From Salarchaeum japonicum (GTDB lineage Archaea > Halobacteriota > Halobacteria > Halobacteriales > Halobacteriaceae): DNA of 64,000 bases. The stretch lies in contig NZ_CP085324.1 in assembly GCF_020614395.1 (NCBI RefSeq), positions 248,001 to 312,000 on the forward strand, read 5' to 3'. The notes under the pieces were generated by a model, which was not told the DNA's origin, ran no database searches, and was given only the letters and a program-made list of their open reading frames with translations. The translations under genes were made by a program, and so were the position numbers. This document shows positions 17,667-44,897 of the stretch, in pieces. Within the stretch, counting starts at the first letter, position 1, and the number at the start of each line of letters is the position of its first letter.

Positions 17667-17711
17667 ACCACATACTGGCGGCGGCCGCTCTAAAAGCGTT
17701 CCTCACCCACC

Positions 17712-17813
17712 TTTTTACTCTGCGGGTCGCCGGAGGCGACCCCTTGAGTAAAAACCTGGAGGGAAAAAGCCGCTCGCCGGAGGCGAGCGGTGAACCTCGC
17801 GCAGAGCGCGAGG
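17712..17813. repeat. cluster of perfect hairpins with 3-nt loops
   Basis: Three perfect inverted repeats with purine triloops: GGGTCGCC-GGA-GGCGACCC (17724-17742), CCGCTCGCC-GGA-GGCGAGCGG (17770-17790) and CCTCGCGC-AGA-GCGCGAGG (17795-17813). The first is nested in a further 9-bp stem, TTTTTACTC/GAGTAAAAA (17712-17720 and 17746-17754). They lie in the 241-bp gap between divergent genes, so they are not ordinary terminators. Confidence 0.8.
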
Positions 17814-40498: not shown

Positions 40499-41556
40499 GC
40501 GTCTTCCTCACGGGCTTCCCGGGCTTCCTCGGGTCGGCGCTCGTCGAACGCCTCCGCGACCGCACTGACCGCATCGACTGCTTGATTCAGTCCCGGTACC
40601 GCGAACAGGCCGAAACGCGCGGCGAAGCCATCGCCGGCGACGACTGGCGGGAGACCATCGCACTCCACGAGGGCGACATCACGCAGTCCCACCTCGGCCT
40701 CGGCCCCGACACCTACGACCGCCTCCAGGCGGACGCCGACGAGGTGTTCCACCTCGCCGCCGTCTACGACCTCGCCGTCGAGCGCGAGGTCGGGATGGCA
40801 GTGAACGTCGAGGGCACGGAGCGCGTCCTCGACTTCGCCGCGGACGCCGACCTCCGCCGCCTCCAGTACGTGAGCACGTGCTACGTCTCCGGCCGCCACG
40901 ACGGCGTGTTCCGCGAGACCGACCTCGACGTGGGCCAGTCCTTCAACAACCACTACGAGGAGACGAAGTTCCTCGCCGAACGCGCCGTCCAAGCGCGGAT
41001 GGACGAGATTCCCACGACCGTCTATCGGCCCGCCATCGCCGTCGGCGACTCCGCGACGGGCGAGACCCAGAAGTACGACGGCCCCTACTTCGTCCTCCAG
41101 TGGCTCCTCCGCTGTCCCGGTATCGCGCCCGTCCCGTTCATGCCGGGGTCGCTCGACACCGAACTGAACGTCGTCCCCCGCGACTTCGTCGTGGACGCCA
41201 TCGACGAACTCAGCCGACTGGAGCGCTCCTCGGGCACCGTCTACCAGCTCTGCGACCCGAACCCGCCGACGATTCCCGAACTCACCGCGTTACTCGCGGA
41301 CGCCGCCGACACCCGCACGCTCCCCGTCCCGAGCACGCGCGGCCTCACGAAACGCCTCCTCCGCACCCGCCTCGGCCGCGAAACCGGCATCCTCCCGGAG
41401 TCCGTGGACTACTTCACGCACCCGACGACGTACGTCTGCCCGAACACCCGCCGCGACCTCGAACACGCCGCGTGTCCGCCGTTCGAGAGCTACGTCGACA
41501 CGCTCGTCGACTACGTCAGAGAACACCCGGAGATAGACTCGAACGCGATGGTTTAG
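40495..41556 (+). CDS. NAD(P)-binding SDR resembling acyl/thioester reductases
   Basis: 353 aa, starting with GTG at 40495 inside the aldehyde dehydrogenase stop. Rossmann motif TGFPGFLGSALV (residues 5-16), YVSTCYVSG and YEETKFLAER (YxxxK), as in the extended SDR/NAD_binding_4 group that reduces fatty acyl or carrier-bound thioesters to aldehydes. Coupled with an aldehyde dehydrogenase it could supply or remove aldehydes. The stop interlocks with prf1 by 4 bp (TTAG). Confidence 0.88.
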   Translation: MSVFLTGFPGFLGSALVERLRDRTDRIDCLIQSRYREQAETRGEAIAGDDWRETIALHEGDITQSHLGLGPDTYDRLQADADEVFHLAAVYDLAVEREVGMAVNVEGTERVLDFAADADLRRLQYVSTCYVSGRHDGVFRETDLDVGQSFNNHYEETKFLAERAVQARMDEIPTTVYRPAIAVGDSATGETQKYDGPYFVLQWLLRCPGIAPVPFMPGSLDTELNVVPRDFVVDAIDELSRLERSSGTVYQLCDPNPPTIPELTALLADAADTRTLPVPSTRGLTKRLLRTRLGRETGILPESVDYFTHPTTYVCPNTRRDLEHAACPPFESYVDTLVDYVREHPEIDSNAMV

Positions 41557-42809
41557 ATTCCGGTGTCGTACCGGAGGAGACCCGCGATACCGCCGAACGC
41601 CGTGAGGAGCTGTTCGCCCTTCTCGAAGTCCGTGCTGATGAAGTGCGTGTCCGTCCCGCGCTGGTCGGCGATCTCCATCAGGAAGTCGATGACGTCCTCG
41701 CGCTCGCCGTCGTCCGCCGCGACCGTCGCGTCGCAGTCCGTGCAGTCGTGACTCGGCGTGGACGCGCGCCGGTCGACGACCTCGTACTCCTCGTGGCCGT
41801 TCTCGCACTCGTAGACGACCACGTCCTTCCGCAAGTCCTCGCTCAACAGGAGCCTATCCACGGACCCCATCACGAGGTTCTGGCGGGTCGGCTCGAACCC
41901 GTACGTGGCGAGGCCGCCGCCCTGGAGTTCCGAGAAGAACTCGTTCATGTCGTCCTTGTCCTGCATCAACTCCGCCTCGGAGAGCGCCTCCGACCCCGCG
42001 TCCACGAGGTCGCTCAGCCCGGACTCGTCCGTGTACGAGACGTCGAACTTCCCGAGCACCTTGTCCTGGAGTTCGTGGTGGAGGTAGTCGCCGTCGAGGA
42101 ACTCGTCCTTCGTCGGACTCGGGCCGCCCACCAGAATCCCGTCGAGTTCGTGGCGCTTCGCGACGAACAGGTCGTTCGCCATCCCCGCGACCTCTTGGTA
42201 GAAGTTGTCGATAGCCTCCAACCGCAGTCGCGCGAACCGCTGCGCTGACTGTCCACCTTTCCGCTGCTTCCCGGGGACGAGCGAACTCGCGGACTTCACG
42301 GGCTCCACGCGCTTGCCCTTCAGCCACCCGACGTTCGCCTCCCGCCGGTCGAGCACGATGAGACCGTACAGGCCCTTGTCCGCTAGCATGTGCTCCAGCG
42401 GCTCCGTCAGGAACTCGCTGTCGCAGTGGTAGCGGAACGACTCCACCGGCTGCGGCGGATTCTCCAGCACCTCCGTCACCATCTTCGTCTGCCCGCCGCC
42501 CGAATCCACCGCGCCCGAGAACAACACCATCCCGTTCTCCGGCGGGAACGTATCGTAGTACCGCAAGCGGTCTTTGATAGACGTCAGGGCGTCCTGCACG
42601 TTCGTCCGCGTCTGCTTCGACTTGATGTTCGACGCCTCCGAGTGCTCCTGCGTGACGTGCGCCACCACGTCAGAAATCTGGCGATCCGGCGGAATGTAGA
42701 TAGTGACGAGCTGCGTCCCCGAACCGGAGTACTCCTTCAGCTCCTCGATGAGCTTCCGGAACTCGTACTTCTTCCGGTCTTCGGACTGCTCCTCCTGCTG
42801 TTCACTCAT
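41553..42809 (-). CDS. prf1: archaeal peptide chain release factor 1
   Basis: 418 aa. NIKS stop-codon recognition loop at residues 61-64, the GGQ peptidyl-hydrolysis motif at 185-187 (KQRKGGQSAQR) and the C-terminal L7Ae-like domain with a CDATV-containing mini-ribbon. It reads all three stop codons. TATA-like TTACTTA (minus strand, about 42835-42841) lies 26 nt upstream of the ATG. The 5' flank borders a hairpin array. Confidence 0.95.
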   Translation of the reverse strand: MSEQQEEQSEDRKKYEFRKLIEELKEYSGSGTQLVTIYIPPDRQISDVVAHVTQEHSEASNIKSKQTRTNVQDALTSIKDRLRYYDTFPPENGMVLFSGAVDSGGGQTKMVTEVLENPPQPVESFRYHCDSEFLTEPLEHMLADKGLYGLIVLDRREANVGWLKGKRVEPVKSASSLVPGKQRKGGQSAQRFARLRLEAIDNFYQEVAGMANDLFVAKRHELDGILVGGPSPTKDEFLDGDYLHHELQDKVLGKFDVSYTDESGLSDLVDAGSEALSEAELMQDKDDMNEFFSELQGGGLATYGFEPTRQNLVMGSVDRLLLSEDLRKDVVVYECENGHEEYEVVDRRASTPSHDCTDCDATVAADDGEREDVIDFLMEIADQRGTDTHFISTDFEKGEQLLTAFGGIAGLLRYDTGI

Positions 42810-42920: not shown

Positions 42921-43143
42921 GCTCACGGGTCACTCGCGTTCCCCGCTCGCTCGTTCAGCGGACACGGAGTGTCCGCTCACGCCTCACTTCGTTCAGCGTT
43001 CGCTCGTTCGGGCAACTCTCCGAGTCGCCCTGCTCGCGGGTCGTTCCTCTCCGCTCGCTACTTCCGGGAAATCGAAGATTTCCCGTCCTACTCACGGGTC
43101 GTTCCTCCCCGCTCGCTCGTTCGGGCAACTCTCCGAGTTGCCC
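42921..43143. repeat. tandem array of four linker-plus-hairpin units
   Basis: Four units of 53-58 bp. Each has a conserved linker ending in GCTCGCTCGTTC or close to it, then a 9-bp stem with a 3-nt loop: AGCGGACAC-GGA-GTGTCCGCT (42957-42977), GGGCAACTC-TCC-GAGTCGCCC (43010-43030, one mismatch), CGGGAAATC-GAA-GATTTCCCG (43065-43085) and GGGCAACTC-TCC-GAGTTGCCC (43123-43143). The last ends 2 bases from the argS stop. The remaining 42810-42920 shows only the prf1 promoter. The array fills the 336-bp gap between prf1 and argS. Confidence 0.85.
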
Positions 43144-43145
43144 TG

Positions 43146-44897
43146 CTACATCGACTCGGGCGCTTCCACACCCAGGAGGCCGAGGCCGGTGTCGAGGGCT
43201 TCGCGGGCGGCGTTGACGACTGCGAGCCGCGCGTCCCGCACGTCGTCGTCCACGTCGTCGGCGAGGACGGGGCACTCGCGGTAGAACGTGTTGAAGTCGT
43301 CGGCGAGGTCGCGGACGTAGGTCGCTATCTGGTGGGGTTCGAGTTCGTCCGCGCTGCGTTCGACGACGACGGGGAGGCGGGCGACGGACCGCACGAGCTG
43401 GATTTCGGCGTCCTCGGTGAGGAGGCCGGCGTCGATGTCGTCGGGGACGGTCTGGCCGTCGAGAATCCCGCAACTGCGGGCGTGGGCGTACTGGACGTAG
43501 GGCGCGCTCTGCCCCTCGAAGTCGAGGGCGTCGTCCCAGTCGAACGTGATCGACTTCTGCGGCTGTTTCGCGACGATGTCGTAGCGCACCGCGCCGATAC
43601 CGACCTGGCGGCTGATGCGTTCGATGTCGTCCTCGGTGAGGTCGTCCTCGCGGATGCGGTCGTCGAGGCGTTTTTCCACCTCGTCGCGGGCGCGCGAGAC
43701 GGCTTCGTCCAGGAGGTCGTCCATGTCCACGCCGGTGCCGGCGCGCGTGCTCATCGACTCGCCGCCCGGGAGGTTCACCCAGCCGTAGAACAACTCCTGG
43801 AGCTGGTCGGTGTCGTTCCCGAGGATGTCGAGCGCGGCGCGGAGCTTGTTCGCGTGGAGCTCCTGGTCTTCGCCGAGCACGGTGACCGCGCGGTCGAACT
43901 TCTCGAACTTCCACTCGTGGTGCGCCAAGTCCCGGGTCGTGTAGAGGGTCGTGCCGTCCGAGCGCAGGAAGACGAACGACTGCTCGATGTCCCAGTCGTC
44001 GAGGTCGAGTTGCCACGCGCCCTCCTCCTTGTACGCGTACTCGGCGTCCTTCAGGCGTTCCGTGACCTCGTGGGTGGACTCGTCCTGGAGGAATCGAGTC
44101 TCCTTCACGAACTCGTCGAACTCCGCGGGCAACCGCGAGAGCGTGTCCGTCATCCCCTCCAAGACCTGGTCGACGACCTCGCTCACGCGCTCGTACGTCT
44201 CCTCGTCGCCGCTGTCGAGGCCTTCGATGATGTCCGCGATTTCGTCCTCGGCGGCCGCGACCTCGTCCTCGTCGCCGTTTTCGAGGAAGGCGTTCCCCTT
44301 CCGGTAGTACCGGACGAGGTCGTAGTCGGGTTTCTCGCGCTCGGGACTGGGGAGGTCGGACTCGTCGAACGTCTCGTACGCCCACGTGAACACGGCCATC
44401 TGGCGGCCGGCGTCGTTCACGTAGTACTCGCGGGTCACGTCGTTGCCGGCGTAGTCGAGCACGCGCGCCGTCGCGTCCCCGATGATGGGGTTGCGGGCGC
44501 GCCCGACGTGCACGGGTCCGGTCGGGTTCGCGCTCGTGTGCTCCACGACCACGTCGTCGCCGGTGTCGGGGAGGCGGCCGAACTCCGCGGACTGGGTCGC
44601 GGCGAGCGTGTCCGCGTCGTACTGCCGGGTGACCTCGAAGTTCACGTACGGCCCCTGGGCGGTCGCGTCCCCGAGGTAGTCGTAGCCGTCCGTGTCGAGT
44701 TCCGCGACGATGTCGGCGGCGACGCTGGCGGGCGCGGCCCCCACTTCGCTGGCGAGGCGGAACGCGACGCTCGATGCGAGCACGGCGGGCACGTCCTCGG
44801 GGGGTTCTTCGAGGCCGAGGTCGTCGGTCGGGAGGTCGAGGGTCGAGAGCGCCCCGGTGAGGGCGTCTTCGACCTCCGCGCGAAACGCTAGGAACAT
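43146..44897 (-). CDS. argS: arginyl-tRNA synthetase
   Basis: 583 aa. The HIGH-like motif is HVGR (130-133) after [11 protein letters not shown], the KMSKS region is the degenerate GESMSTRAG, and an anticodon-binding domain ends the protein. It charges tRNA-Arg. It starts at ATG 44897. The 3' end runs straight into the hairpin array, so the mRNA tail is highly structured. Confidence 0.96.

Follow-up and report, generated by a model that had tools for sequence, protein, structure and literature searches.

Rickettsia palindromic elements (RPEs) are short, multi-copy palindromic repeats of ~100–150 bp that lie between genes and, in frame, inside unrelated housekeeping genes; they fold stably, carry no transposase of their own, and are constrained in orientation and frame where they occur within genes (properties taken for comparison from a review, PMC10969869, and from general background). 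In the haloarchaeon Haloquadratum, PATEs and other small mobile repeats are short, palindromic and transposase-free, and have moved without an evident enzyme; PATEs have near-terminal palindromes, are in some cases as small as 52 bp, resemble IS605-type ends, and are described as causing no target duplication (PMC3119063). REP/BIME elements form arrays of alternating palindromic modules, often near the 3′ ends of genes, and bear a GTAG/CGTC tag, while in CRISPR arrays each tandem unit has one conserved and one variable portion.

An array of hairpins between argS and prf1 of Salarchaeum japonicum resembles each of these systems in part. It lies in a window of 64,000 nucleotides (contig NZ_CP085324.1, positions 248,001 to 312,000; coordinates below are window positions unless prefixed), and its units consist of a variable hairpin (A) followed by a conserved one (B). 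By analogy, and with no claim of membership, the unit appears to work like an RPE, including the constraint within genes (37/37 copies in sense), but it is shorter (~45–65 nt), has two hairpins with G·A and GNA features, forms tandem arrays, resides in an archaeal host and, in the clearest cases, draws part of its variable stem from target sequence. It departs from PATEs in its hypervariable stem A, its class-wide core, and a copy number that does not track Y1 transposases. In contrast to REP/BIME, hairpin B contains tandem G·A mismatches, the units are often intragenic and in frame, and the genome has no Y1/RAYT-type transposase. An IS200/IS605- or RAYT-driven REP was rejected on the absence of PF01797 here and the lack of correlation, within the family, between Y1 presence and unit number. 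A CRISPR-like array, which an earlier note on this DNA had likewise set aside, was also rejected because the variable parts are palindromes rather than unique non-palindromic spacers, and units are also scattered singly through genomes. The array probably represents four copies of a short palindromic element (~45–65 nt) that is dispersed and spreading among the genomes of haloarchaea in an RPE-like manner.

Two-hairpin units between argS and prf1

On the minus strand, the array (42921–43143) repeats a ~55-nt unit four times, head to tail. It is flanked by two genes of that strand, argS (arginyl-tRNA synthetase, 43146..44897, homologous to argS of 73 haloarchaeal loci) upstream and prf1 (aRF1, peptide chain release factor, 41553..42809) downstream, and is read in the direction argS to prf1. 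Judged by prf1, the genome is Halarchaeum-like. Hairpins A and B alternate along this strand. Hairpin A has a variable 9-bp stem and a 3-nt loop, mostly c-GNA-g. Hairpin B had been regarded as a conserved linker; the conservation holds, but the linker is itself a minus-strand hairpin, GAAC-NNNC-GA-GCGGG-GA-NN-GNA-NN-GA-CCCGY-GA-GC, whose stem is interrupted by two 5′-GA/5′-GA tandem mismatches and capped, in a typical copy, by a GNA-type triloop.

Unit 1 (42921..42977), the 3′-most on the minus strand, scores 4.7e-10 with the covariance model R1 described below; its hairpin A (42957–42977) reads AGCGGACAC-TCC-GTGTCCGCT, then GAACGAGC, and its hairpin B (~42921–42950) has inner AC/GT pairs and a GCGA loop. 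In unit 2 (42975..43030; R1 6.5e-13), hairpin A (43010–43030) is GGGCGACTC-GGA-GAGTTGCCC, with one G·T pair, and hairpin B (~42975–43003) combines ACGCT/GGCGT with an inner AC-GAA-GT. Unit 3 (43032..43085; R1 8.4e-8) carries CGGGAAATC-TTC-GATTTCCCG as hairpin A (43065–43085) and has its hairpin B at ~43032–43058. Unit 4 (43090..43143; R1 7.0e-13), which starts 3 nt past the argS stop codon, carries GGGCAACTC-GGA-GAGTTGCCC as hairpin A (43123–43143), then the GAACGAGC linker and hairpin B at ~43090–43116. All units and their hairpins lie on the minus strand; the triloops read GNA on that strand in two of four cases and on the plus strand in the other two. ViennaRNA returned the complete two-hairpin fold for unit 2, whereas in unit 4 the predicted cap is shortened.

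Much of the earlier description is borne out, including the four units, the 53–58-bp spacing of the hairpins, the linker ending in GCTCGCTCGTTC or nearly so, and the contact of the last hairpin with the argS stop. Its statement that stems differ in sequence while keeping a 9-bp, 3-nt design needs qualification: the design is kept and the stems do vary, but stems 2 and 4 are near-copies of one another, and only the hairpins at 42957–42977, 43065–43085 and 43123–43143 are perfect.

A two-hairpin family across Halobacteria

On the 2.2-Mb chromosome, perfect 9-bp stems exceed expectation at a few odd loop sizes only, most strongly at 3 nt (93 observed vs. 54 in an order-4 Markov simulation). For 8-bp stems the excess lies in the loops cGGAg (38) and cGAAg (19), which also rank foremost at 80 other haloarchaeal loci, and intergenic regions contain 68 of the 87 cGNAg hairpins that have at least 7 bp. 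Internal loops were scanned using a design of four outer pairs, a 2×2 internal loop, two inner pairs and a triloop. GA/GA ranks first among 2×2 loops in the S. japonicum genome (63 vs. 19 simulated) and just under the top rank in other haloarchaea (41 vs. 13 simulated); GA/GA with a GAA loop is the most frequent combination in both (12 and 17, respectively). Because the scan scores a strand together with its complement, it necessarily gives GA/GA and TC/TC the same count; of the two readings, GA/GA is physically favorable. GNA triloops and sheared tandem G·A pairs are exceptionally stable in DNA, and tandem G·A pairs are stable in RNA too. Predicted stability is higher for the GA strand than for its complement in 41 of 42 units using RNA parameters, and in 40 of 42 using DNA parameters. 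In near-perfect cGNAg stems, G·T mismatches outnumber A·C mismatches 13:3 in this genome and 7:4 in other haloarchaea, small numbers that conform to expectation if the GNA-bearing strand folds.

Pair counts reveal two-sided changes at 14 of 18 pairs, and helix B is 97% paired, among copies picked by structure; because of that selection, a structure-blind control was run. The sequence-only motif GAAC-N4-GA[AG]CG[GC] occurs at 204 sites, of which 14 have a flush hairpin A (plus 4 with a long loop), 16 a closed hairpin B, and 10 both A and B, whereas eleven permuted tetramers yielded A and B together once in 2137 sites. This shows that the hairpins are no artefact of choosing copies by structure.

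The earlier note had called for a genome-wide covariance model. R1, built from 13 A+B units that were themselves chosen by structure and giving rough E-values, finds 32 copies in the S. japonicum genome at E≤0.01, and matches 238 of 292 Halobacteria genomes and 68 of 77 genera, with per-genome copy numbers to be read as at least those counted. Of 120 genomes drawn across the phylum, 13 have matches at E≤1e-4, every one a haloarchaeon, with no R1 match listed for a non-haloarchaeal genome at that threshold. The suggestion that the hairpins form a family therefore holds genome-wide, and indeed class-wide, with strong covariation among copies; the proposed link to sites at 10 kb and 57.5 kb of the window was not confirmed, no triloop hairpin being found in the ranges searched there. 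Rfam 15 provided no credible match (best E 7.1, none at the gathering threshold), and term- and sequence-based searches of open-access papers turned up no account of this family.

Copies within genes and empty sites

Genes were called with a simple, trained, home-made gene finder. By these calls, 18 of the 32 S. japonicum copies overlap a gene, all in sense orientation, as do all 19 gene-overlapping copies in other haloarchaea. Some merely touch or cross a stop codon; the remainder are internal, open and in frame, and mainly use one of the two sense frames. In-frame inserts occur in genes for ArgRS, GluRS, TrpA, TrpB, Kae1, CobN and LysX. Ten host proteins were confirmed by Pfam: an AhbA/NirDL-like protein, a LysX-type ATP-grasp protein, GluRS, a PLP enzyme (TrpB-like), TrpA, two ArgRS, CobN, a LarA-like protein and Kae1. 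Stop-free frames are commoner in antisense (116/120 vs. 76/120 in sense), where they encode basic peptides with few acidic residues; that the sense rule holds despite more open antisense frames therefore points to protein-level selection or strand-specific insertion.

Comparison of filled and empty sites reveals clean insertions of 51–66 nt, some with short direct repeats that contribute one arm of stem A. The AhbA/NirDL-like gene contains the unit in genomes G000, G001 and G035, and lacks it in 13 other genomes of the family. The sequence CGGGAG, found once in many of the empty genes, flanks the S. japonicum unit on both sides; here the target-derived GGAG forms the outer arm of stem A, and the complementary CTCC lies within the insert. 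In Halorarius halobius ArgRS, a 51-nt insert lies between two copies of GACGAGGC, which is single in many relatives; that of Halopiger goleimassiliensis (locus L198) has a clean 51-nt insert relative to its relatives, without a direct repeat. Flanking repeats of ≥7 nt were observed at 4 of 47 single copies vs. 0.73 expected (permutation p 0.002), a significance that holds for the set as a whole and not for individual copies; in the clearest cases they start 2 nt ahead of stem A. Because most copies show no flanking repeat, target duplication and target-templated stems are proposed here tentatively. An exact ~18-nt target duplication at loci L231/L232 was ruled out, the repeats being just 6 nt and 15/18 nt. 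One site carries the unit in different genera (G000/G001 and G035), which may reflect vertical descent followed by precise loss, or horizontal transfer. Empty sites could also be produced by the repeat-mediated deletion that has been described in Haloquadratum (PMC3119063).

In a predicted ArgRS model, the L198 insert falls at approximately residues 483–499, where a helix end runs into a low-confidence loop, a placement that is suggestive only. The ArgRS inserts of Halorarius (L132:8346–8393) and Halopiger (L198:7515–7562) are both in frame, apparently independent, and at nearly the same place, beside HARCCGIL. A near-identical in-frame unit also occupies the same position (SAARSAAEQSSGE..DPRD) in the CobN genes of G023 and G030 (loci L248 and L257), members of two families; an old insertion, a recurrent target or horizontal transfer are alternative explanations.

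Lability and origin of the array

In the sister genome G001, whose flanking genes are 92% identical to those of S. japonicum, the same gap contains the same kinds of module in a different order, and AGCGGACAC-TCC-GTGTCCGCT is replaced by AGCGGACAC-GGA-GTGTCCGCT: the palindrome is inverted, or copied from the other strand. The array is kept at argS–prf1 in G000 and G001 only, and is absent there from Halarchaeum rubridurum and other genera. Being shuffled in G001 and missing at this place elsewhere, it is young and labile. Over 400 kb, a G000–G001 indel scan yielded one relevant copy-number difference, near C1:1916853, and no new single copy that was cleanly inserted. At C1:1916936–1917103, S. 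japonicum has an array whose A stems are identical (CGCGACGC); its counterpart in G001 is much shorter. Dense hairpin arrays upstream of prf1 also occur in Haloarcula and in a Halobacteria archaeon (loci L176, L190 and L193); in these, variable outer stems carry the cap GA-NN-GNA-NN-GA.

The pattern of conserved linkers and varying, complementary stems had been read in the earlier note as looking like selection on structure. The pattern alone does not sustain that reading at argS: each unit is a copy of a dispersed repeat, the sister species has the array rearranged and one of its loops inverted, the insertion site supplies one arm of stem A in two clear cases, and tandem intergenic copies, in this genome and other haloarchaea, are just mildly biased in orientation relative to genes (20 sense, 12 antisense). 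Selection on RNA structure is not needed to explain the array. A more specific proposal, that tandem 3′-UTR hairpins stabilize or terminate the argS mRNA or regulate prf1, would account for several features, since the GA strand, strongly favored in predicted RNA folding, is the mRNA strand at argS, the first hairpin adjoins the argS stop, and several other copies start within a few nt of an upstream stop codon. We nevertheless consider it quite improbable, as neither the limited conservation of the array nor its shuffled modules and inverted loop suit a cis-acting RNA, many copies lie in divergent gaps, copies inside genes cannot act in a 3′ UTR, and adjacency to stops may arise because the element provides the stop upon sense insertion; the orientation counts likewise weaken a purely sense 3′-UTR element.

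The Haloquadratum precedent raises a different prospect, in which the unit is a PATE composed of IS200/IS605-type transposon hairpin ends fused together, and a Y1 (HUH) transposase acting in trans mobilizes it as single-stranded DNA. The size class, the lack of terminal inverted repeats, and the prediction that chiefly one strand folds all agree with this. It is nonetheless rather unlikely: Y1_Tnp (PF01797) is absent from the S. japonicum genome, in a search that detected it in control genomes, and from the unit-rich genomes G023, G094, G127, G245 and G039, while G018 has Y1_Tnp but no unit matches; stem A is hypervariable, and direct repeats flank some copies (L198 has none), whereas PATEs are described as causing none (PMC3119063). 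Mutational patterning alone, with template switching at quasi-palindromes perfecting and inverting hairpins in the absence of mobility or selection, would explain the loop inversion and module shuffling between sisters and the arm formed by target sequence at filled sites, and stable GNA triloops would favor snap-back. It cannot by itself explain a GAAC-B module conserved across 68 genera, or clean insertions in unrelated genes, and we regard it as an unlikely full account; template switching may be part of the insertion mechanism.

For a spreading RPE-like palindromic element, the preferred explanation, insertion would occur in intergenic DNA and, on the sense strand and in frame, within protein-coding genes as well. 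Copies would arise via a folded single-strand intermediate, which could be DNA or RNA, and the complementarity of stem A would be kept because, at each insertion or template switch, one arm is templated by the other and partly by the target. The argS array would then have grown through local unit duplication and reshuffling. No transposase or other mobilizing enzyme for the element was identified. It is conceivable, although we put this forward as a doubtful extension, that this is a transposase-free mobile element of Halobacteria in which sheared tandem G·A pairs and GNA triloops hold the folded strand, the variable hairpin is partly written from the target at each insertion, and recurrent insertion, always in frame and in sense, has given core translation and metabolic enzymes extra peptides. 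If the preferred explanation is right, a class-wide family of tiny elements has been entering essential genes of haloarchaea in frame and giving proteins such as ArgRS and GluRS hydrophilic segments. The family would be the archaeal equivalent of RPEs, one for which no enzyme is known, and would explain some of the puzzling palindromic DNA between haloarchaeal genes. The GA/GA plus GNA rule is usable for searching, and the reading is testable in genetically tractable haloarchaea.

A site at 17.7 kb of the window, which the earlier note had grouped with the array, does contain GGA-triloop hairpins (17707–17790), but these belong to a different, T-tract-flanked family. This second GNA-triloop family, arranged as CCCACCTTTTT-hairpin-AAAAACCTGGAGGGAAAAA-hairpin and present at ~16 places in the genome, often lies ~20 bp past stop codons and looks like a (bidirectional) terminator element.
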